Part shown: positions 31,036 to 44,076 of the stretch, piece after piece | Layout of the letters: every line of letters starts with the position of its first letter | Position numbering within the stretch: position 1 is the first letter of the stretch | From: Candidatus Omnitrophota bacterium | GTDB lineage: Bacteria > Omnitrophota > Gorgyraeia > JACQQV01 | Assembly (NCBI GenBank): GCA_016206785.1 | Contig: JACQQV010000005.1 | Span: 1 to 59,924, forward strand | Length of the DNA: 59,924 bases | Reading direction: 5' to 3' | The notes under the pieces: generated by a model | What the model was told of the DNA's origin: nothing | The model's database searches: none | What the model saw: the letters and a program-made list of their open reading frames with translations, nothing else | Made by a program: the position numbers and the translations under genes

Positions 31036-31758
31036 TTACATTGTAAATTTCTCGCCAAGGTAAATTTTCCGCGCCTCCGAACTCCTTAACAACTCCTCCG
31101 CGGTTCCAGAAATCAGGATCCGACCGTCCGCCATGAGGTACGAACGGTCGGTGACGGAGAGGGTTTCCCGGACATTGTGGTCTGTGAGAAGTATCCCGAG
31201 GCCTTTTCGTTTCAGTTCATGAATAATCTGCTGGCATTCGGAGACGGCAATCGGATCGACCCCGCTGAAGGGCTCATCCAGAAGAAGGAAAAGAGGATTG
31301 GTGACAAGGGCACGGGTGATTTCAAGCCGCCTCCGTTCCCCGCCGGAAAGCATGTACGCCTTCTGCTTGGCAAGAGGCGTGATATGAAGTTCGGAAAGAA
31401 GTTCACCGAGTCGTCTCTCCCTTGTCTTGGGAGGGATGTGGAGGGTTTCAAGGACCGCCATGATATTCTCCGCTACGGTGAGCCTTTGAAAAATAGACGG
31501 TTCCTGCGAGAGGTATCCGATGCCACACCGGGCCCGACGGTACATCGGTAAAGAGGTGATGTCCTGTTGGTCAAAGATGATCTCTCCGCTGTTCGGCAAC
31601 ACAAGCCCCATGATCATATAAAAGGTGGTCGTTTTCCCTGCCCCGTTCGGTCCCAAAAGGCCGACAATCTCTCCGCGCTTGACCGTAATGGCCACATCCC
31701 TCACCACCGGCCGGCCGTTATACGATTTAACGAGGTGCCTGGTCTCTAATAAATGCAC
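31036..31758 (-). CDS. lptB: LPS export ABC transporter ATP-binding protein LptB
   Basis: Cytoplasmic ATPase of the LptB2FGC complex that extracts LPS from the inner membrane. In the 240-residue product, Walker A GPNGAGKT is at 36-43, the signature LSGGE at 137-141, Walker B LLLDEP at 158-163 and the switch His in LTDHNVRET near 193-201. The start is GTG, preceded by GGAGG at 11 nt, and lies 32 bp inside the LptC/LptA gene. Walker A to signature spacing and the NVRETL segment are characteristic of LptB rather than LivG. Confidence 0.95.
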   Translation of the reverse strand: MHLLETRHLVKSYNGRPVVRDVAITVKRGEIVGLLGPNGAGKTTTFYMIMGLVLPNSGEIIFDQQDITSLPMYRRARCGIGYLSQEPSIFQRLTVAENIMAVLETLHIPPKTRERRLGELLSELHITPLAKQKAYMLSGGERRRLEITRALVTNPLFLLLDEPFSGVDPIAVSECQQIIHELKRKGLGILLTDHNVRETLSVTDRSYLMADGRILISGTAEELLRSSEARKIYLGEKFTM

Positions 31759-32620
31759 GTTTTTCTTTTTCCTCCGGCTTGATCAAAAGTTTTGGTTTGC
31801 CGACAAGGGTCACTTTCCCGAGCAGGGCATTATAGATCGCCTTGTCGCTATAGGAGACATTGTCTCCCCGTGTGATCCGGACATTCCCGGTTGCGATGAG
31901 TTCTTTCACATGATTCGTTTCCGGCTCAAAGGTGATATCCATCCGATCCGCCAGAAGTTCCCCTTCTTTGTCGATCGCTCTGACTTCGTCGTGGAAGACA
32001 GCGATATTGTGGGTATAATCGAGTTCCATCGGGCCTCTGGAGGTAATTTGAATGTCGGGCGCCATATGGACCTTGACCTCTTCCTTGAGGGCCACCTTTT
32101 TCAGATCGGGATAAGCCTCTGCGCCTTTTCCTTCCGTCATTAGAGTTCCTCTTTCGATCGTGAGCCTGTCTTCCGTCGAAAGTTTTTTCGAAGACCCGTT
32201 CCAATCGAGCGAATCCGTTTTGAGAGTGGCCCCATCGCTCGTCTGTGCAAACACATTCTCTTCAAGGTGCGCCTGTGCCGTGTGGCGGTCATAGGTGCCC
32301 CGTTCGGAGGTCACCGTCATCGTCGTCTTCCCTTCCATGGCAAGTTTCGGCTTTTCAAGTCTGGCAAGATCCCCTTCCAATGAAGCCTTCGTCCCCTGAA
32401 CCTCCCACTCCCGTTTTCCCTCCCTGGAGTATCCTGTAAATGAAAAGGTGTGGACCTCTTGTTCTGGAATGGTTTCCTCCGCAAAAGCCATCTGTCGAGT
32501 CGACAATGACAAATGACAAAGCACAAAATTCAAAATAAATCCAAAGCACAAATACCAAATGACAAAACCCCGTTTTGGAATTTGAATTTTGAATTTATTT
32601 TGTGCTTTGAATTTTGTCAT
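31727..32620 (-). CDS. LPS transport protein combining LptC-like and LptA-like domains
   Basis: Periplasmic bridge proteins for LPS transport appear joined in one 297-residue product. Residues about 53-190 resemble LptC (FSFTGYSREGKREWEVQG, then SERGTYDRHTAQAHLEENV), and residues about 190-290 resemble the LptA/OstA beta-jellyroll (MELDYTHNIAVFHDEV, IATGNVRITRGDN). The N-terminal 43 residues are encoded by a palindromic repeat (32502-32629): its A-rich arm gives a basic, polar n-region and its T-rich arm gives the hydrophobic segment VIWYLCFGFILNFVL. Without it no membrane anchor exists. It precedes lptB and follows lpxL. Confidence 0.82.
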   Translation of the reverse strand: MTKFKAQNKFKIQIPKRGFVIWYLCFGFILNFVLCHLSLSTRQMAFAEETIPEQEVHTFSFTGYSREGKREWEVQGTKASLEGDLARLEKPKLAMEGKTTMTVTSERGTYDRHTAQAHLEENVFAQTSDGATLKTDSLDWNGSSKKLSTEDRLTIERGTLMTEGKGAEAYPDLKKVALKEEVKVHMAPDIQITSRGPMELDYTHNIAVFHDEVRAIDKEGELLADRMDITFEPETNHVKELIATGNVRITRGDNVSYSDKAIYNALLGKVTLVGKPKLLIKPEEKEKRAFIRDQAPR

Positions 32621-32629
32621 TTGTCATTA
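32502..32629. repeat. Long palindromic repeat, family A, copy 2 (inside coding sequence)
   Basis: CAATGACAAATGACAAAGCAC at one end mirrors GTGCTTTGAATTTTGTCATTTGTCATT at the other, with further CAAA/TTTG-rich inverted sequence between. The element spans the junction of lpxL and the LptC/LptA gene. It encodes the last residues of LpxL (MTNDKIQSTK) in one frame and the signal anchor of LptC in another. Composition is unlike the flanking genes and like the copies at 11024 and 59626. Confidence 0.85.
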
Positions 32630-33524
32630 CCTTCTCGGGCCTCGTCTTCCACCGACGATGCATCCAGACCCATTGATCTGGAAACCGACGGATATACGAT
32701 TCTGTGACGGACATCCACCGTTCTGTAAGGCGATTCACCGCCTCTTCTTTATCCGATCCATTGGCCGGCCAGAGGGGTTCTTCGACGACGAGCCGATGCC
32801 TTCCATTTCCTTCCCGGATCATGAAACAAGGAATAACAGGTGCCCCTGAGGCAATGGCAAAACGGGCAGGGGCAACCGGGGTGTACGCCTCCTTCCCAAA
32901 AAAAGGAACAAAAATACCGTCGACAGAGTCAATATCCTGATCGGCGAGAATCCCGAGGAATTGATTTTGGTGAAGAATCCGAAGCATCTGTTTCGGAGAC
33001 TCATCGCGGTAAAGGTACTTCAGCCCTTCGCTTTGACGGATTTCGCTCAAGAGACGGTCAAACCGTTCATCGTAGACCTTCCGGATGACAATGATCCCTT
33101 GATATCCCTTGAGGGATAAGGCTCGGGCGAGAAGCTCCCAGTTCCCAAAATGGGCGACCAAGAGGACGCCCCCTTTCCCGCTTTGAAGGACTGTATCCAG
33201 TTTCGAAAGTCCCTCGAAGGAGACCCATCGGTTTAGCGTCTTTTGAGTGATTTTTGGAAAATAGATAAGTTCCGCAACCGTTTTTCCTAAATTTTGGAAG
33301 ACCGATTCCCCGACTTTAAAAATTTCGTGTGGCGTTTTTTCCTTGCCAAAAGCAAGCGTCAGGTGCTGAACGGTCTTCCGTCTTTCTTTCCCAAGAACCC
33401 AGAAAGCACTCCTCCCCAGGAAAGCACCAAGCGCGATGCCCCACGAAGAGGGCAGTTTCCTCAAGAGAAAGCGGATAAAAAGGGTCAGGCGATAAAGGAT
33501 TTTCCTCCGAAGGCGATTTTTCAT
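32595..33524 (-). CDS. lpxL: Lipid A acyltransferase, LpxL/HtrB family
   Basis: Inner-membrane enzyme adding a secondary acyl chain to Kdo-lipid A. The 309-residue product begins with a hydrophobic segment, and has HFGNWE with H125 and E130 (HX4E), LADQD near 194-198 and the C-terminal WVWMHRRWKTRP. The ATG at 33524 is used; a TTG two codons upstream is alternative. The final ten residues (MTNDKIQSTK) come from a palindromic repeat and are not family sequence. A clear promoter precedes it, so it probably opens the lpxL-LptC/A-lptB-tig-clpP transcript. A second LpxL domain lies at 49547-51496. Confidence 0.92.
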   Translation of the reverse strand: MKNRLRRKILYRLTLFIRFLLRKLPSSWGIALGAFLGRSAFWVLGKERRKTVQHLTLAFGKEKTPHEIFKVGESVFQNLGKTVAELIYFPKITQKTLNRWVSFEGLSKLDTVLQSGKGGVLLVAHFGNWELLARALSLKGYQGIIVIRKVYDERFDRLLSEIRQSEGLKYLYRDESPKQMLRILHQNQFLGILADQDIDSVDGIFVPFFGKEAYTPVAPARFAIASGAPVIPCFMIREGNGRHRLVVEEPLWPANGSDKEEAVNRLTERWMSVTESYIRRFPDQWVWMHRRWKTRPEKVMTNDKIQSTK

Positions 33525-33547
33525 GAACAATTATCCCCAAACTTATT

Positions 33548-33577
33548 ATTCTACAATATGTTATGCGGGATTGTCAA
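33548..33577 (-). promoter_or_regulatory. Sigma-70 promoter upstream of lpxL
   Basis: The minus strand has -35 TTGACA (33572-33577), an 18-bp spacer and -10 TAGAAT (33548-33553). The start site would lie about 15-20 bp before the lpxL ATG. The rest of 33525-33647 shows no other feature. Confidence 0.75.
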
Positions 33578-33647
33578 GAAAATTTGGAGGGATTGGGATG
33601 ACTAAGATTGAAAAAGGAAAAAATTGGATAATCGAATGACTTTACTC

Positions 33648-34757
33648 TTAAAAATCCAGACAAACAGCCGCAGCCTCAGCTAGCGCATCCGCATCATTAT
33701 CTGCTCTTGCGCAAACTCTCCAATTACGAACGTTAGATATCACAGTCTGCTCGACCCAACAATAACCTGAATCATTATCGATATGATACATCCTGCAGTA
33801 ACTAAGAGCGCAAAAATCATGTGGTTGGTAACCGGTGCAGATCACGTTATGAGTAATAGGGACGCCCATGCCTGATATGGTAGAGTTTAACCGAGGAATT
33901 CCCACATTTCCAAAACCATCCATGCGTATCCCTCCCGCAGGCACACTATTAATCCATGGAGCGATGACGAAATTAGAAGTGTTACTATTTCCATCTGTCT
34001 GGTTGCTGTAAATGATCCCCATATCTCCCGCTTGAGTTATTTGGTTCCATTGTAAATTAGCTGTTAAGCCAGAAACAAATCCCATCCAATTCACCCCCGG
34101 GGCCGGATTTCCATTTGTCATATACATGGTAGGGGCTGCTCCATTACTCGCCATCACATGAAACTTAGCGGTTGGGTTAGCAGTCCCAACTCCGACATTG
34201 CCGGTATTATTAACAACAAAATCATCCGCACCGACCGCAGACATACCAATACTGAAGAACCCCTGATCATCAACTCGGCTTAAACGTAAAGTGTTACCGA
34301 TAATTGGCCCGTCAGTCGTGTAAAATTTGTATGCTCGTGTACCTCCTGTTGAACCTTGAAGACGAAGCAAATCTGAAGAACCAAGAATGTCCAACTTCGC
34401 CCCCGGACTCGGCGTCCCGATACCGACATTCCAGGTGGCATCATTCGGATAGAGGTTAGGCGCGCTCAGCGTCCAGTGATTACTCCCCCCTGCCGCACCT
34501 CCCACAATGTCCCAGGTGAAGGTTGCTCCATTACAGAGAAGGAGCTGATTGGTTCCGCTATCATAGTACGTGAGACCGCTGCGGGTGGCATCACAAATGC
34601 CCGGGCTTGTTGTGGGAACGAATCTCACATTCTGATACTCCCCGAAAGGAGCGGGATAATAGGTCGTTAAGGTAATCTGTTCCTGGGCAATGGCAACAAG
34701 GCTACAGGTGAGAAGCAAAAGGAGAAGAAGGAAAAAGATTCTTTTATCGGAGTTCAT
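33648..34757 (-). CDS. Secreted surface protein with VGIGT repeats, paralogue 1
   Basis: Function unknown. The 369-residue product has a clear signal peptide (about 1-24, long leucine run) followed by QITLTTYYPAPFGEYQNVR, a motif that I link with large families in uncultured lineages. The mature part has repeats of the form NVGIGTxxPxxKLxV (near 110-126 and 186-202), as in tail fibres and trimeric surface fibres. The C-terminal 70 residues have eight cysteines, suggesting a disulfide-bonded head. A GGGAGG site precedes the ATG. Its 5' 147 bp are almost identical to those of the next gene. Confidence 0.8.
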   Translation of the reverse strand: MNSDKRIFFLLLLLLLTCSLVAIAQEQITLTTYYPAPFGEYQNVRFVPTTSPGICDATRSGLTYYDSGTNQLLLCNGATFTWDIVGGAAGGSNHWTLSAPNLYPNDATWNVGIGTPSPGAKLDILGSSDLLRLQGSTGGTRAYKFYTTDGPIIGNTLRLSRVDDQGFFSIGMSAVGADDFVVNNTGNVGVGTANPTAKFHVMASNGAAPTMYMTNGNPAPGVNWMGFVSGLTANLQWNQITQAGDMGIIYSNQTDGNSNTSNFVIAPWINSVPAGGIRMDGFGNVGIPRLNSTISGMGVPITHNVICTGYQPHDFCALSYCRMYHIDNDSGYCWVEQTVISNVRNWRVCARADNDADALAEAAAVCLDF

Positions 34758-34773
34758 GGCGTGCGCCTCCCTT
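34627..34773. repeat. Duplicated 5' cassette, copy A
   Basis: This 147-bp block (ribosome-binding site, signal peptide and the first 44 or so codons of the secreted protein) matches 35805-35951 at all but one base that I can find. Sequence similarity drops away on both sides. It points to recent duplication or gene conversion. Confidence 0.9.
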
Positions 34774-34810
34774 CAATGAGACAATGACTTTAAGTTTTTA
34801 TACTATTGAT

Positions 34811-35935
34811 TTAGAGACAGATACAATGCTCGCCTGATCCCCACATAGACAAACAACCGCCGATATTAAAATTGCCGCTGGCATCTTCGGAAAAAAGACA
34901 TCCTCTACCGATCTGTGCACAGCGAGTTGCACAAGGCGTACCGTTAGGGGACCAAACATATACTAAAGCATTTCCATAGTCTGTGTTCGCGGCATTGTAA
35001 AATCGAATATTCCACCCTCGATACGCTCCGCTACCCATCATTCCAATATCACCGCCTTGTACCATAATAGAAAGAGGATCAGAAGGTACAGGGGGGTTGC
35101 TAAAACCACTTTGTTGCGCAAATAGCATAGGAGTGGTTAAAGCGCCTCCAATAGTGAGCCTCGCAGACGGTTTTATTCCCCCTATACCAATACCCACATA
35201 TCCATCCCCATAGACCACAAATTGATCGATGCCGGCGTTGTTCACGGCAAGGGCCTTGGTGTTCGCTCTATTCGCAGTACTTAAGATACCGTAATTCCAG
35301 TCGGTGGCATAAGGAGCATTCACGTTAAGTTTCACATTGCCGGGGGAAGAAGTTCCGATCCCGACATTGCCGTTTACACCGGATATTGTTGGACCAGATG
35401 ATCCTAGCTTGATATGCCCTTGAGTAGCATCTGGGATCCCGTAAAGACCCATTGTGTTGGCTATATCAATATCCACCAACTTTGTATCGTTACCGACAAT
35501 TAAAGCATCCCCAGAGAAAGTATCGGATTTAACCAGCGCTGTACCAGCAACATTAAGTTTGTATACAGGATCCGTCGTTCCAATCCCCACATTCGAGCTT
35601 AAAGTTGTGGGATAGAGGTTACTTCCCGACAGTGTCCAGAGACTACTCCCGCCCCCTCCACCCCCCCCTCCCAAAACAGCCCAGGTGCTACTTCCCCCGT
35701 TACAATAAAGGATTTCGTTGGTGGTAGAGTTGTAGAACATAAGACCCGTTTGGGTCGCCGTACAAGACGTTCCTGAGGTTGCTCCTGTGGTTGGGACAAG
35801 TCTTACATTCTGATACTCCCCGAAAGGAGCGGGATAATAGGTCGTTAAGGTAATCTGTTCCTGGGCAATGGCGACAAGGCTACAGGTGAGAAGCAAAAGG
35901 AGAAGAAGGAAAAAGATTCTTTTATCGGAGTTCAT
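34811..35935 (-). CDS. Secreted surface protein with VGIGT repeats, paralogue 2
   Basis: Function unknown. The 374-residue product shares the first 45 residues with paralogue 1 almost exactly, then diverges. It has NVGIGTTDPVYKLNVAG and NVGIGTSSPGNVKLNV type repeats, a glycine-rich linker near 90-98 and a C-terminal Cys-rich end (seven Cys in the last 45 residues or so). This layout suggests an exported, fibre-like surface protein with a variable tip. It has its own promoter with an extended -10 element and lies downstream of the kdsC terminator, so it is a separate transcription unit. Confidence 0.8.
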   Translation of the reverse strand: MNSDKRIFFLLLLLLLTCSLVAIAQEQITLTTYYPAPFGEYQNVRLVPTTGATSGTSCTATQTGLMFYNSTTNEILYCNGGSSTWAVLGGGGGGGGSSLWTLSGSNLYPTTLSSNVGIGTTDPVYKLNVAGTALVKSDTFSGDALIVGNDTKLVDIDIANTMGLYGIPDATQGHIKLGSSGPTISGVNGNVGIGTSSPGNVKLNVNAPYATDWNYGILSTANRANTKALAVNNAGIDQFVVYGDGYVGIGIGGIKPSARLTIGGALTTPMLFAQQSGFSNPPVPSDPLSIMVQGGDIGMMGSGAYRGWNIRFYNAANTDYGNALVYVWSPNGTPCATRCAQIGRGCLFSEDASGNFNIGGCLSMWGSGEHCICL

Positions 35936-35951
35936 GGCGTGCGCCTCCCTT
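35805..35951. repeat. Duplicated 5' cassette, copy B
   Basis: Partner of 34627-34773 with one base difference (GGCGACAAGG here against GGCAACAAGG). Both copies end at the same point before the promoter region, in CTCCCTT on the plus strand. Confidence 0.9.
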
Positions 35952-35970
35952 TTTTATGGCTTCATTGACA

Positions 35971-35979
35971 AGTATACCA
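35971..35979 (-). promoter_or_regulatory. Extended -10 promoter for secreted paralogue 2
   Basis: The minus strand reads TGGTATACT, that is TGnTATACT, about 30 bp before the ATG of the secreted protein. No good -35 box is present at 17 bp, which is acceptable for an extended -10 promoter. It lies just past the kdsC terminator. Confidence 0.5.
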
Positions 35980-36001
35980 TATGGAAAACGGGGGGACGTT
36001 T

Positions 36002-36048
36002 AAAAACAAAAAGGTTGTGCAAAGGGTGAATTGGCACTTTGCACAACC
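36002..36048 (-). terminator. Strong intrinsic terminator after kdsC
   Basis: GGTTGTGCAAAG and CTTTGCACAACC form a perfect 12-bp stem with a 12-nt loop, followed on the minus strand by TTTTTGTTTTT. A T run also follows on the plus strand, so it may work both ways. It lies within 10 bp of the kdsC stop and ends the long LPS operon. Confidence 0.92.
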
Positions 36049-36054
36049 GTTTTT

Positions 36055-36588
36055 TTACCGGTGATTGGTGTACTCGGCGACGAGGGCGTCGTACTTCTCC
36101 TGACTCTTCAAAATGAGATCTACCACCTCCCGGACCGCCCCCCGCCCCCCTTTGCGCTGGGTGACATAGCCGCTTCGCGTACGCACCTCCTCGACGGCGT
36201 TCGGGACACTGACCGGGAGCCCTGCCTCCACAAGGATCGGGAGATCCAAAAGGTCATCCCCGATAAAGCAGACCTCCTCGTCGGTCACACGAAACTTTCG
36301 CTTCACCTTTTGGTAGACTTTCCATTTGTCCAATGCATTTTGGTAGACCTTGGACACATGGCTGTCGCGCGCCCGTCGCTGGACGACCGGTGATTTTTTG
36401 GCGGTGATGATGACCGTCTTGATACCGGCCTTTGAAAGAAGATAGATCCCGAAACCATCTTGAACGTCAAAACATTTGAGTTCATCCCCTGCATCGCCGT
36501 AGATGATCCGTCCGTCGGTTAAGACCCCGTCGACATCGAGGATGAGTAGCTTCACCTTTTGGGCGCGTTCTCTGATAGCTGAGTCCAT
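36055..36588 (-). CDS. kdsC: 3-deoxy-D-manno-octulosonate 8-phosphate phosphatase
   Basis: HAD-family phosphatase (C0 type, no cap domain) that removes phosphate from Kdo 8-phosphate. The 177-residue product has DVDGVLTDG with nucleophile D18 and D20, the IITAKKS motif near 60-66 (Ser/Thr and Lys), and GDDLLDLP near 115-122. The length fits the family. The gene is last in the run from the sugar transferases to kdsC and is followed by a strong terminator. Confidence 0.95.
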   Translation of the reverse strand: MDSAIRERAQKVKLLILDVDGVLTDGRIIYGDAGDELKCFDVQDGFGIYLLSKAGIKTVIITAKKSPVVQRRARDSHVSKVYQNALDKWKVYQKVKRKFRVTDEEVCFIGDDLLDLPILVEAGLPVSVPNAVEEVRTRSGYVTQRKGGRGAVREVVDLILKSQEKYDALVAEYTNHR

Positions 36589-36592
36589 TATG

Positions 36593-36672
36593 GGATTTCG
36601 TATCTCGTATCTCGTGAAGTGTATCTCGTATTTTGTTCGACGAACGACGCTTCACGCTTCACGAACGACGAT
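36593..36672. repeat. Short repeat, family B, copy 2
   Basis: The whole gap between kdsC and the PilB-like gene is CGTATCTCGTGAAGTGTATCTCG-type sequence followed by CTTCACGCTTCACGAACGACG. Its reverse complement matches 16237-16290, with an extra ACGAACGACG unit. No coding capacity is seen. Confidence 0.75.
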
Positions 36673-37998
36673 TTAACTTTCTCGGGTGACACGGAGCACC
36701 TCCTCGATGGTCGTAACACCGGCCCTCGCCTTGTCCAAACCGTCATCCCGAAGGGTGCGCATCCCTCCTCGTAGCGCGGCCGCATTGATCGCGTCCGTCG
36801 CACTCTTGGCAACAATGAGATTCCGGATCTCATCGTTCATTTCCATCAGTTCAAAGATCCCGATCCGGCCCCGGTAGCCGATCTGACGACAGGTCGCACA
36901 CCCTTTCCCCCGGTAAAAAGGAGCACTTTGTGGAACCTCTTTTTTACTTTCCACTTCTTTCTCTGGCTCCATGATATAGAATTCTCCTTTCCGTTCCGGG
37001 CTCCATTTCCCCCGTTTCTCCGAAGGCGTGGGCGGGGCAAATTCCTGAAGGACCGCCTCGGGAGGGGCGTAGTCTATTTTACAACCGTTGCAAATCTTTC
37101 GAACGAGCCGTTGGGCCAAGACGCCGATGAGCGATGAAGAAATAAGGAAAGGTTCGATGCCCATATCGACGAGGCGGGTCACCGCCCCTGCGGCATCATT
37201 GGTATGAAGGGTGCTAAAAACAAGATGACCGGTGAGAGAAGCGCGGATGGCGATCTCCGCCGTTTCAAGATCACGAATTTCCCCGACGAGAATAATGTTG
37301 GGATCCTGCCGCAGGACGGAGCGAAGGCCATTGGCAAAGGTGAGTCCTACTTTTGGGTTGACCTGCCCTTGATTCACCCCTTTCAACTGATATTCCACCG
37401 GATCCTCCAGGGTAATGATATTCAGTTGCGGAGAATTAAGAATGGAGAGGACCGCATAAAGGGTGGAGGTCTTGCCACTATTCGTAGGACCTGTCACAAA
37501 GATCATCCCATTCGGCCGTTTGATGAGTGTCTCAAATTTCGATTGAACAGCCTCCGAAAGGCCCAGTTCGTTCAGGGTCCGGAAGGTGACCTCCTTATCC
37601 AGGATGCGGACGGCAATCTTTTCCCCCAAGATCGTCGGGAAAGTAGAAACACGGACATCCACATCCCGCGTCCCGGCCCGGAGACCGAACCGCCCATCCT
37701 GAGGGGTGTGGGTCCTGCCGACATCTGGATCAAGTTCTGCCATCACCTTGATGCGGGGAATAATCGGAAGGGCGTCCCTTCGAAGGGTGAGCATGTCATA
37801 GAGAATGCCGTCGATCCGATAACGGACACGGAGGGAGTCTTTGGTCGGTTCGATATGGACGTCGCTTGCCCTTTCCTCGATCGCCTGCGCCAGGATCAAA
37901 TCGACCACCTGAATCACAAGAGGATTGTCCAGACTGGCCCCCTTGGCACCACTCGTAAAAACGAGTTCATCGTATTTCTCTTTAAGTGTCTTGATCAT
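36673..37998 (-). CDS. Type II secretion / type IV pilus assembly ATPase (GspE/PilB family), short form
   Basis: Hexameric ATPase that powers pilus or pseudopilus assembly. The 441-residue product has Walker A GPTNSGKT (170-177), Walker B ILVGEIRD near 236-243, the ASDVHIEP motif (44-51), and four zinc-binding cysteines (C303, C306, C367, C370). It lacks the usual N-terminal domain of about 120-150 residues. The 60-residue stretch between the two Cys pairs holds a charged insertion. The start overlaps kdsD by 4 nt. No other pilus gene adjoins it; a prepilin peptidase lies at the far end of the window. Confidence 0.9.
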   Translation of the reverse strand: MIKTLKEKYDELVFTSGAKGASLDNPLVIQVVDLILAQAIEERASDVHIEPTKDSLRVRYRIDGILYDMLTLRRDALPIIPRIKVMAELDPDVGRTHTPQDGRFGLRAGTRDVDVRVSTFPTILGEKIAVRILDKEVTFRTLNELGLSEAVQSKFETLIKRPNGMIFVTGPTNSGKTSTLYAVLSILNSPQLNIITLEDPVEYQLKGVNQGQVNPKVGLTFANGLRSVLRQDPNIILVGEIRDLETAEIAIRASLTGHLVFSTLHTNDAAGAVTRLVDMGIEPFLISSSLIGVLAQRLVRKICNGCKIDYAPPEAVLQEFAPPTPSEKRGKWSPERKGEFYIMEPEKEVESKKEVPQSAPFYRGKGCATCRQIGYRGRIGIFELMEMNDEIRNLIVAKSATDAINAAALRGGMRTLRDDGLDKARAGVTTIEEVLRVTRES

Positions 37999-38974
37999 GT
38001 GAGATCTCTAAAAGAAGGAGACACAAGACCGACCCGCAAAAGGTCCTGAACATCGAGAAGTCCGATGGGACGGTGTGAAGCATCGACAACCGGCATCTCG
38101 TCGATCCGTTTCTCCTCGAGGATCCGGAGCGCCTCGGTGGCGAGCCGCTCAGGGGAAATGGTGACCGGATGACGCGTCATGACCGACCGGATAGGCACCT
38201 TGGAGAGATCCGCTTCCTTTTCCAGGTGGCGTCGTAAGTCTCCGTCGGTAAAGATACCGACAAGCCTTCCCTTTGGGTTCACGATCGAGGCACTCCCTGC
38301 CCGCGCGCGGGTAATGGCAAAAAGGGCCTCACGGACCGTCGCAGATTCCTTAACGATCGGATTGGCCCGACCGGTCCGCATCAAATCCTTGACCTTCAAA
38401 AGCTGTTTGGCAAGATTTCCTCCCGGATGATAAAAAGCGAAATCATCCGCTTTGAAACGCCGTCTCTCCTGAAGTTCCACGGCGAGGGCATCTCCCATCG
38501 CCAGCATCGCCGTCGTCGACGCCGTGGGGGCAAGTCCGAGGGGGCAGGCCTCCCGTCGGATCGTGACATCTAAGACATAGTCACTATTTTTCGCAAGGGT
38601 TGAACGCACACTTCCCGTAATGGCAATGAGTTTCGCTCCAATTTTTTTGATGAGCGGAAGGAGCCTCACAAGTTCCTCTGTCTCTCCACTATTGGAGAGG
38701 GCGACGACCACGTCTGATTTGGTCACGCGGCCAAGATCTCCATGAAGGGCCTCCGCGGGATGAAGCCAGAGACTCGGACTCCCTGTTGAGGAAAGGGTCG
38801 CGGAAAGTTTCTGGCCGATAATCCCCGGTTTGCCCATGCCGGTCACGACAATCCTCCCTTTGACCGAAAGGAGTGCCTTGACCGCCTCTTCAAAAGAATG
38901 ATTGAGTCGCGGAATGAGAGAGCGGACCGCATCCGCTTCAATCTTCAACACCTCTTTGGCCCGACGTAGAGACA

Positions 38975-38975
<1 letters not shown>
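37995..38975 (-). CDS. kdsD: Arabinose-5-phosphate isomerase (SIS and CBS domains)
   Basis: Interconverts ribulose 5-phosphate and arabinose 5-phosphate, the first committed step to Kdo. The 326-residue product has a SIS domain (about 35-170, with VTGMGKPGIIGQKL near 44-57 and SNSGETEELV near 95-104) and two CBS domains (about 205-326). The PTASTTAMLAMGDALA segment near 149-164 is typical of the KpsF/GutQ family. Overlaps are TAATG with kdsA and ATGA with the PilB-like gene. Confidence 0.94.
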
Positions 38976-42205
<3,230 letters not shown>

Positions 42206-42218
<13 letters not shown>

Positions 42219-43207
42219 CGGAGCTCTTCGATCCTCTGCAGAAGTTCGGAGGGGGTCACCACCGCGATCCCTACCTTTCCGACCACAATGCCGGCCGCCA
42301 CATTGGAAAGGACCGCTGCATCGATCAGCGAAGAGCCAGCGGCAAGTGCGGCGGTAAAGGTTCCAATGACGGTGTCCCCCGCCCCGGAAACATCGAAAAC
42401 CTCCTGGGCCACCGTCGGAATATGGGTGATCTTCCCGTTCTTCTCAAAGAGGACCATCCCCTCTTCACCCAGAGTGATGAGTACCGCCTGACACTTCAAT
42501 CGTCTTAAGAGGTCCCCCCCTACCTTCTTAAGTGGAATACGGTCGGTATTTCTCTCTCCGATCATCTCATACGCCTCTTTCCGGTTCGGGGTGAGAACCG
42601 TAACGCCGCGATAATGCTCAAAATGTTCTTCTTTCGGATCCACCGCCACAATTAAGGAACGTTTTTTGGCCCAGTTGATCACTTCCTGGATTAAATGGGG
42701 CGTCACAACCCCTTTTCCATAGTCTTCAAGGAGGATGGCATCCACGCCCTTCAGGGCGCCTCGTACGCCGGAGAGAAGGCGACGCAACAGACGATGAGAA
42801 AGGGGGTCCTGATTTTCCCGATCGATCCGGACCAGTTGCTGATGATGGGCCACAACACGTGTTTTGAGGGTGGTGGGGCGAGCTGGATCGGTGATCACAT
42901 GCGTGAGCCCGATCCGCCGTCTCTTAAGAAGTGTTTTAAGGCGCCTTGAGGCTTCGTCTTTCCCCACGACACCACAGAGGGAAACCTGACCGCCCAAGGC
43001 GGCGATGTTATTGGCCACGTTCGAAGCCCCTCCCGGCATATAGGAATGGCGTTTCTCCCAAACCACCGGCACCGGGGCTTCCGGCGAAATCCTTGAAACA
43101 TCCCCCCAGATAAACTCATCCAACATGAGATCCCCTATCACAAGGAGGTGGGCACGCTTAAACTGTTGGATGAGATTCCTGTAAAAGGCGATCGGTTTGG
43201 CGTTCAC
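42206..43207 (-). CDS. rfaE1: D-glycero-beta-D-manno-heptose 7-phosphate kinase (RfaE1/HldE N-terminal type)
   Basis: PfkB-family sugar kinase of the ADP-heptose pathway. The 333-residue product has GDLMLDEFIWGDVSRISPEAPVPVV-type N-terminal sequence (about 25-49), the family hallmark of HldE kinase domains, and the ribokinase signature DVSGAGDTVIG near 260-270. The cytidylyl/adenylyltransferase half of HldE is absent, so that activity must be separate. The start is GTG without a clear Shine-Dalgarno sequence, so it is less certain. It fits the downstream need of the four GT9 domains for ADP-heptose. Confidence 0.92.
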
Positions 43208-43260
43208 TACGATGGGATTTTCACTCTACGGCTTTATTCTAATAGGGATGGGGGAAAAAT

Positions 43261-44076
43261 TCAAGATTCTTTTTTGAGCACCACTTCGATGATGCCGAAA
43301 GGGACCCTTGCCTTCATATAAAGAGGGGTTCTTTTTTGATCGAGGCTGAACCAGATCCACATCCTCCCTTTTCGAATAAAAACGCCGTGGAATTGGGCAA
43401 GGGGTTCTACCAGAAGCGCGGGGACCTCTTTTTTGCCGAAGAGTTTCAGGAGCCCCGCTTTGAGTACCTTCACTTCCAGACGCCAGTTCTTTTCATCTGC
43501 ATTCACGTCGATGAAAACGGATTGGCCGGTCTCAAGGGGGAGGGTGCGGAAATAGAAGAGGGTGCTTAAGGAATCCTGAACGCTGGGAGGAATTTCCATC
43601 TCTTTGGTGCTGTTGTTTAAGAAAGAACGGTAAGTCGCCTTGCGGCTGGTTGGGTCATAGACCATCTCCTCATGGGCACGGTAGCGGCCTTCACGCTGGC
43701 GTTTCTCAAACCGATAAGGAGTAAGGGTCTCTACATCGACGTAACTATGGATTTCGTCTTCAACAGGATAAAAGGTGGAGAGAAACCGGTTCGAGCGGGC
43801 AGAGACGACGAGGTGATAGACCTGATGGTCTTGGTAAGTGGTGACCTCTCTCACCTCCAGCCGCCCGCTTCCGACATTAAGACCCATCCAATTGACATCG
43901 TAATCCAAGGTTTCCCCCACACGGAACTTTTTTTCTGGGACTTGCATCTCTTGGGTCAAGGCTTTTGTCTGCCGGAGTTTCCCCAAATCCTCCCTGTGGG
44001 TAAAATAGGTGAGATTCGAGCATCCTGAAAAAGTAAAAATTAAAAAGGAAAAAGTAAAAAGTTTAACGGAGGTCAT
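43261..44076 (-). CDS. DUF3108-like periplasmic lipoprotein
   Basis: The 271-residue product has a signal peptide with lipobox FSGC (C19) and a mature domain with the DUF3108 pattern: GETLDYDVNWMGLNVGSGRLEV near 54-75, a segment around DEIHSYVDVETLTPYRF, and a C-terminal DxxRTPLYM-like part. Its function is not established; members often sit with LPS genes. The hydrophobic core LFTFSFLIFTFS is encoded by a T-rich ACTTTTT repeat (44027-44066). The start overlaps the neighbouring GT9 gene by 4 nt. Confidence 0.8.
   Translation of the reverse strand: MTSVKLFTFSFLIFTFSGCSNLTYFTHREDLGKLRQTKALTQEMQVPEKKFRVGETLDYDVNWMGLNVGSGRLEVREVTTYQDHQVYHLVVSARSNRFLSTFYPVEDEIHSYVDVETLTPYRFEKRQREGRYRAHEEMVYDPTSRKATYRSFLNNSTKEMEIPPSVQDSLSTLFYFRTLPLETGQSVFIDVNADEKNWRLEVKVLKAGLLKLFGKKEVPALLVEPLAQFHGVFIRKGRMWIWFSLDQKRTPLYMKARVPFGIIEVVLKKES
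44027..44066. repeat. A/T-rich short repeat, family C, copy 1 (in signal peptide)
   Basis: AAAAAGTAAAAATTAAAAAGG continuing as AAAAAGTAAAAAG on the plus strand is a run of GTAAAAA-type units. It encodes the hydrophobic part of the lipoprotein signal peptide. A similar run lies at 58449-58489. Confidence 0.6.

Follow-up and report, generated by a model that had tools for sequence, protein, structure and literature searches.

A near-identical export cassette on two diverged tail-fibre-like genes of an Omnitrophota bacterium and the tagged family to which they belong

Layout of the gene pair and its surroundings

The window, which is the whole stretch of 59,924 nucleotides analysed here, carries two tandem open reading frames on the minus strand, gene 1 (33648-34757; P0001, 369 amino acids) and gene 2 (34811-35935; P0002, 374 amino acids), with gene 2 located upstream of gene 1 across a gap of 53 bases. 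Both are predicted to encode tagged, tail-fibre-like exported proteins, and the tail of P0002 is homologous to that of P0001. Residues 1-24 of the two proteins are the same signal peptide (34686-34757 in gene 1 and 35864-35935 in gene 2, minus strand), which by inspection is of the signal peptidase I type without a lipobox and which was modelled as a hydrophobic helix in P0001. The signal peptide is followed at residues 25-45 by a constant tag, which reads QEQITLTTYYPAPFGEYQNVR in gene 1 (34623-34685, minus strand) and occupies 35801-35863 (minus strand) in gene 2. A mini-domain with a pair of cysteines, whose pattern C..GL.YY...L..CNG..W is common to both genes, comes next. In gene 1 (C...GLTYY...LLLCNG...W, approximately residues 50-85; 34503-34610, minus strand) it was modelled with three strands at a pLDDT of 85-89 and recurs in relatives, and in gene 2 (approximately residues 50-88; 35672-35788, minus strand) it was assigned by homology to the gene 1 region. 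The shaft contains two VGIGT/VGVGTxxP repeats in gene 1 (34068-34460, minus strand) and two VGIGTxxP repeats plus one degenerate copy in gene 2 (35156-35638, minus strand), as read from the sequence, and each protein ends in a Cys-rich tip (33651-34067 in gene 1 and 34814-35155 in gene 2, minus strand) without a relative in the sampled family beyond about residue 260 and residue 275, respectively.

Searches of P0001 and P0002 against Pfam and NCBIfam matched no domain. AlphaFold monomer models of P0001 and of one family member from another genome (G042) were of low confidence (mean pLDDT 53-54), with only the signal helix and either the Cys-pair mini-domain or the first shaft strands fairly modelled; the mini-domain was the best-modelled part of P0001 after the signal peptide. 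A Foldseek search with this low-confidence P0001 model (mean pLDDT 53) returned no significant fold match.

The pair interrupts a KDO/lipopolysaccharide cluster (31727-44076), which contains genes for a DAHP/KDO-8-phosphate synthase-like protein, a cytidylyltransferase, a SIS-CBS isomerase, a HAD phosphatase, a lipid A acyltransferase and LptC/LptA-like proteins, the names of the KDO steps being inferred from Pfam domains. A type II/IV secretion ATPase is located in the middle of the cluster. These Gram-negative envelope neighbours fit a surface role for the pair, and no recombinase was found among the ten neighbours scanned. Two short elements were also observed nearby. A long imperfect inverted repeat (32490-32645, AATGACAAATGACAAAGCACAAA...), located close to where the genes for the lipid A acyltransferase and LptC adjoin, is one of a dispersed family with 21 matches, counted in both orientations, on 8 contigs of the same genome at up to 91% identity, and its appearance suggests a mobile or REP-like element that does not code for protein. 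The second dispersed element (36590-36690, TATCTCGTGAAGTGTATCTCGTATTTTG...CGAACGACG) is flanked by the HAD phosphatase and secretion ATPase genes and had 8 matches in the genome.

Identity and divergence of the cassette pair

The 5' parts of the two genes are alike at 146 of 147 bases (34627-34773 in gene 1 and 35805-35951 in gene 2, both on the minus strand), with a single mismatch. This cassette extends from about 16 bases 5' of the ATG through codon 44 and takes in the ribosome-binding region (GGGAGGCGCACGCC) together with the codons for the signal peptide and for the TTYYPAPFGEYQN tag. Its edges are sharp. A two-breakpoint fit placed the identical block from -15 to +131, numbered from the A of the start codon, again with 146 of 147 bases matching, and was favoured over a single rate with a log-likelihood ratio of 65.6; the flanks (~64 bases upstream and 16 downstream) were 35% identical in an ungapped comparison. 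The first-pass annotation had reported this match, and both copies were found where it had placed them. The interval that it gave (34627-35951) runs from cassette to cassette, whereas the genes themselves occupy the positions given above.

We compared divergence along the gene pair codon by codon. The nucleotide identity fell from 98.5% in codons 1-45 to 57% across the following 80 aligned codons and 53% across the following 148, and the corresponding dS values were 0.07, 1.80 and 1.69. Only two synonymous changes were present in codons 1-45 (codons 21 and 44), and 43 of these 45 codons were identical, fourfold sites included. The tails nonetheless remain homologous, with 37% identity across 173 amino acids. 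The jump in dS from 0.07 to ~1.8 at the cassette edge indicates that the cassette was exchanged recently, and its low dS next to saturated tails indicates that the cassettes became identical long after the tails had split. Among 151 family members, the fourfold third bases of the tag agreed at 31% of sites between genomes and at 60% within genomes; because agreement between genomes is so low, the near-identity in one pair points to recent exchange and not to codon constraint.

The two cassette copies are direct repeats 1178 bases apart, and both belong to genes with complete open frames. Genes 1 and 2 are the sole family members in their own genome (1.6 Mb, 50 contigs), in which neither a third cassette copy nor any inverted, silent or partial copy was found. 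One weak third match (C36:22892, E 0.014) contained a stop and was discarded. Gene conversion and tail replacement after a recent duplication predict the same pattern of cassette and tail. The first-pass annotation had proposed a constant export module joined to a variable display module and kept uniform by gene conversion or recent duplication; the union of constant and variable modules, and a recent homogenisation of the cassette through exchange, were borne out by the dS jump at the module edge and by the recurrence of the pattern in other genomes. The further cassettes that it had suggested searching for were absent from the window's own genome, and the module itself turned up across the phylum.

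The tagged family in Omnitrophota

The module, in which a Sec signal peptide precedes [EQ]xIT[IL]TTYYP[SA]P[YF]GxYxxLR, was detected by profile search (E 0.001) in 69 of 145 sampled Omnitrophota genomes, with 1-21 tagged copies per carrying genome and varied tails. A protein search with a loose cut-off found relatives in 39 of the 59 sampled genomes of the class, including the window's own. A scan of the contigs of named genomes, in which the alignment used was tighter than the 26 diverse modules, confirmed 334 tag loci. Nearly all of the best 80 of these 334 loci were labelled Candidatus Omnitrophota, among them the predator Ca. Velamenicoccus archaeovorus, and the other labels among these 80 were a few Elusimicrobia, one UBP3, one Deltaproteobacteria and a few uncultured organisms. 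No tag relative was confirmed in 2.9 million viral contigs, P0001 had no match among 50,697 phage records, and a literature search for the tag motif found no paper. The tag apparently marks a large family of exported proteins that has so far gone undescribed. One pattern match (L084:1701) proved to be a false member, and its "tandem pair" was therefore not counted.

The consensus of the tag is E-x-[IL]-T-[LI]-T-T-Y-Y-P-[SA]-P-[YFR]-G-x-Y-x-x-L-R, in which the second tyrosine and both prolines, partly imposed by the search pattern, were invariant in all 151 members. In the collected members, which had been selected for a hydrophobic stretch, pattern matching and inspection showed a hydrophobic N-terminus and then the tag. 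By inspection this stretch ended with an A-x-A-like site in front of the tag, unlike a class III prepilin signal, which is cleaved ahead of its hydrophobic helix, and a lipobox-like site was present in only 2 of the 151 members. Nothing C-terminal of the tag was common to all members, whose median length was 272 amino acids. VGIGTxxP-type repeats were found in 77 of 143 members (0.55 expected after shuffling), the first of them starting a median of 60 amino acids after the tag (quartiles 39-72) and only a few amino acids after it in many G042 members; such repeats may occur in functionally unrelated proteins too. The last 60 residues contained a mean of 2.4 cysteines, compared with 0.77 per 60 residues elsewhere in the family. 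The VGIGT repeats and Cys-rich tips named in the first-pass annotation are therefore real.

The tails were heterogeneous and included S74, Gly-rich, dockerin, bactofilin-like and intein-containing forms. Among 142 members, Pfam matched S74 in 19, H_lectin in 2 and Collar, C1q and YadA_head in one each, and also Gly-rich domains; no YadA-type C-terminal anchor was among the families matched. S74 was absent from the window pair and, at the cut-off, from its own genome. The tails are related to tail fibres: one phage tail-fibre PHROG was matched by 48 of the 142 members, P0001 matched a tail-fibre PHROG at 6e-5, and the N-domain of the phage major tropism determinant gave weak matches to two family members. 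P0001 also matched the sequence of the Bdellovibrio fibre Bd2133 (PDB 8ond; E 2.2e-9), a mosaic adhesive trimer (MAT) with a solved structure (PMC10769870), and the family profile found Bd2133 as well. Since the strongest single stretch of the P0001-Bd2133 match reached only an i-E of 0.0098, and no single stretch is strong alone, this match rests on the repeated shaft motifs. In one tagged relative (L039:2543-4207) the protein ends in YDITVEDTHNYFGKNNLLIHNK, an intein/Hint-like C-terminus, and Hint and intein domains were scored in one family member, which suggests that self-processing tails may exist in the family.

Family members were often tandem neighbours, and a near-identical cassette over diverged tails was found in at least three genomes besides the window's. 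A tandem pair in JAQUNK shared a cassette 100% identical in DNA over tails 22% identical in protein, the cassettes were 95% identical in a G042 tandem pair and 94% identical between G042 L125 and L128, and those of a JAPLLS pair were 89% identical. In the JAQUNK, G042 and JAPLLS pairs identity dropped no more than some tens of bases from where the tag ends, and in two further pairs it reached further into the tail. Cassette pairs of G042 that lie on different contigs are near contig ends, and we therefore do not claim dispersal from them. G042 contains 21 tagged proteins (L025, L113, L117-L133), several of them in tandem arrays with 2-base gaps, and their tails are patchy, one pair being 95% identical over 175 residues before diverging and another 96% identical over 114. 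Mantel tests among the 20 complete G042 members longer than 200 amino acids, comparing how similar their signal peptides, proximal shafts and tips are, gave r values of 0.09, 0.13 and -0.02, none significant at 0.05. The nearest signal peptide, shaft and tip of L121_2198 were found in three different neighbours. These essentially uncorrelated modules fit recombination among modules and not simple duplication.

Interpretation and comparison with known fibres

We consider it likely that the pair encodes export-tagged mosaic adhesive fibres that belong to a phylum-wide family and have been diversified by module exchange. The constant part would be the Sec signal peptide and the short tag with which the mature protein begins (E-x-I-T-L-T-T-Y-Y-P-S/A-P-Y-G-x-Y-x-x-L-R), and the tag would most likely export the protein or fix it at the outer surface by way of a putative partner. 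The shaft of phage-tail-fibre-type VGIGTxxP repeats is predicted to trimerise, and the variable, often Cys-rich tips may bind the surfaces of other cells, as Bdellovibrio MATs do, and so could recognise prey or hosts. Recombination between copies would replace or homogenise the 5' cassette, with the tips being swapped or diverging, and for the window pair the outcome would be a cassette 99% identical over saturated tails. More tentatively, and with appreciably less confidence, we suggest that TTYYP[SA]PYGxYxxLR may be a hitherto unrecognised Omnitrophota sorting or attachment signal for unrelated tails, whose shuffled modules could provide a predator or parasite with a recognition repertoire.

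The alternative that comes closest is that the tag is a secretion or attachment signal on many kinds of exported protein and that the pair encodes surface-layer or structural proteins instead of adhesins. The very heterogeneous tails, the restriction of VGIGTxxP repeats to 77 of 143 members, and neighbourhoods of varied housekeeping genes without a constant secretion system would suit it; because family neighbours are so mixed, no dedicated secretion partner was identified. We nevertheless regard it as rather unlikely, since the recognisable tails are mostly tail-fibre, S74 or lectin-like and P0001 matches Bd2133. Active antigenic or phase variation, in which recombination of the direct cassettes swaps the expressed tail, for instance through a deletion or through conversion with silent copies as donors, seems less probable again. 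Recombination between the direct 147-base repeats, which are 1178 bases apart, would leave a single fusion gene, and cassettes have been exchanged in several genomes, but the own genome holds no silent, partial or inverted copies, the ten scanned neighbours include no recombinase, both frames are complete, and the exchange observed is on an evolutionary scale. Of the antigen or adhesin diversification suggested in the first-pass annotation, the adhesin part is upheld by tail-fibre, lectin, C1q, Collar and Bd2133 matches, whereas active antigenic variation or a silent repertoire is not supported for the window's own genome, with its two copies that are direct and both open.

Three further explanations carry little weight. 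Strong purifying selection on the protein could have kept the cassette after a single tandem duplication while the tails drifted, as the strongly conserved tag protein and the frequent tandem arrangement of members might suggest. This is very improbable, given 43 of 45 identical codons, fourfold sites included, beside saturated synonymous sites in the tails, tag fourfold sites that are about random between genomes (0.31), and an identity that covers 16 untranslated bases and ends abruptly. That the genes are remnants of phage tail fibres from a prophage or tailocin, to which the many tail-fibre PHROG matches might point, is hardly credible when signal peptides occur family-wide, the viral contigs and phage records gave no confirmed tag and no P0001 match, respectively, and the locus is an LPS/KDO cluster and not a set of phage genes. 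An assembly artefact that duplicated the cassette in the metagenome bin would need a near-exact repeat in a genome of 50 contigs, and both are present; we find it similarly hard to credit, because both copies are contained in a single 59.9-kb contig, have unlike flanks and differ by one base, and because independent assemblies show the same anatomy.

Omnitrophota are widespread and uncultured in pure form, and their predicted lifestyle is predation on, or parasitism of, other microbes. In about half of the sampled genomes, among them that of Ca. Velamenicoccus archaeovorus, in which predation has been reported, one short tag flags diverse candidate recognition fibres. The tag makes partner recognition testable from gene lists, and likewise the anchoring of fibres, which for MATs on the Bdellovibrio cell is still an open question (PMC10769870).

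The preferred reading, adhesive fibres diversified by module exchange, recalls several known systems. YadA-type trimeric autotransporters share the logic of a fibrous trimeric adhesin, and the YadA head repeat occurs in one family member, but these autotransporters have a C-terminal membrane anchor that was not matched in the 142 members. In PilV shufflons and mycoplasma Vsp-type families, a constant 5' segment is joined to variable 3' parts, and the tagged family is built alike. The window pair differs from these systems in having neither inverted segments nor silent copies and no recombinase among the ten scanned neighbours, and exchange in the family is on an evolutionary scale. Phage tail fibres, with a constant N-terminus and swapped tips, resemble the family in shaft repeats, S74 chaperone, Collar domain and mosaic evolution, whereas the family is cellular, carries Sec signal peptides and has a tag that was not confirmed in viral contigs.

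The MATs of Bdellovibrio bacteriovorus are fibres of the cell surface, conserved at one end and diversified at the tips, and are proposed to act in prey recognition (PMC10769870), and a predatory or parasitic way of life has been argued for Omnitrophota (PMC10066038). Together with the Bd2133 match, this biology and this lifestyle led us to liken the family to MATs. Both have a signal peptide, a conserved N-terminal end, several members per genome, and repeats, those of the family resembling the published capping-loop motif; the S74 or otherwise varied C-terminal tips seen in part of the family may be a further likeness. They differ in that a MAT is ~1,000 amino acids long, compared with the much shorter median of the family, and that the window genome has 2 copies compared with 21 in Bdellovibrio. 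The MAT N-domain, moreover, is beta-rich, comprises ~130 residues and directly follows the signal peptide, whereas the constant part of the family has ~20 residues. Judged by length, with the first repeat a median of 60 amino acids past the tag, most members have too short a stretch between the tag and the shaft to accommodate a 130-residue N-domain, and we therefore did not classify the family as MATs. By analogy, the family most probably works like MATs but with a different, much shorter N-terminal module.
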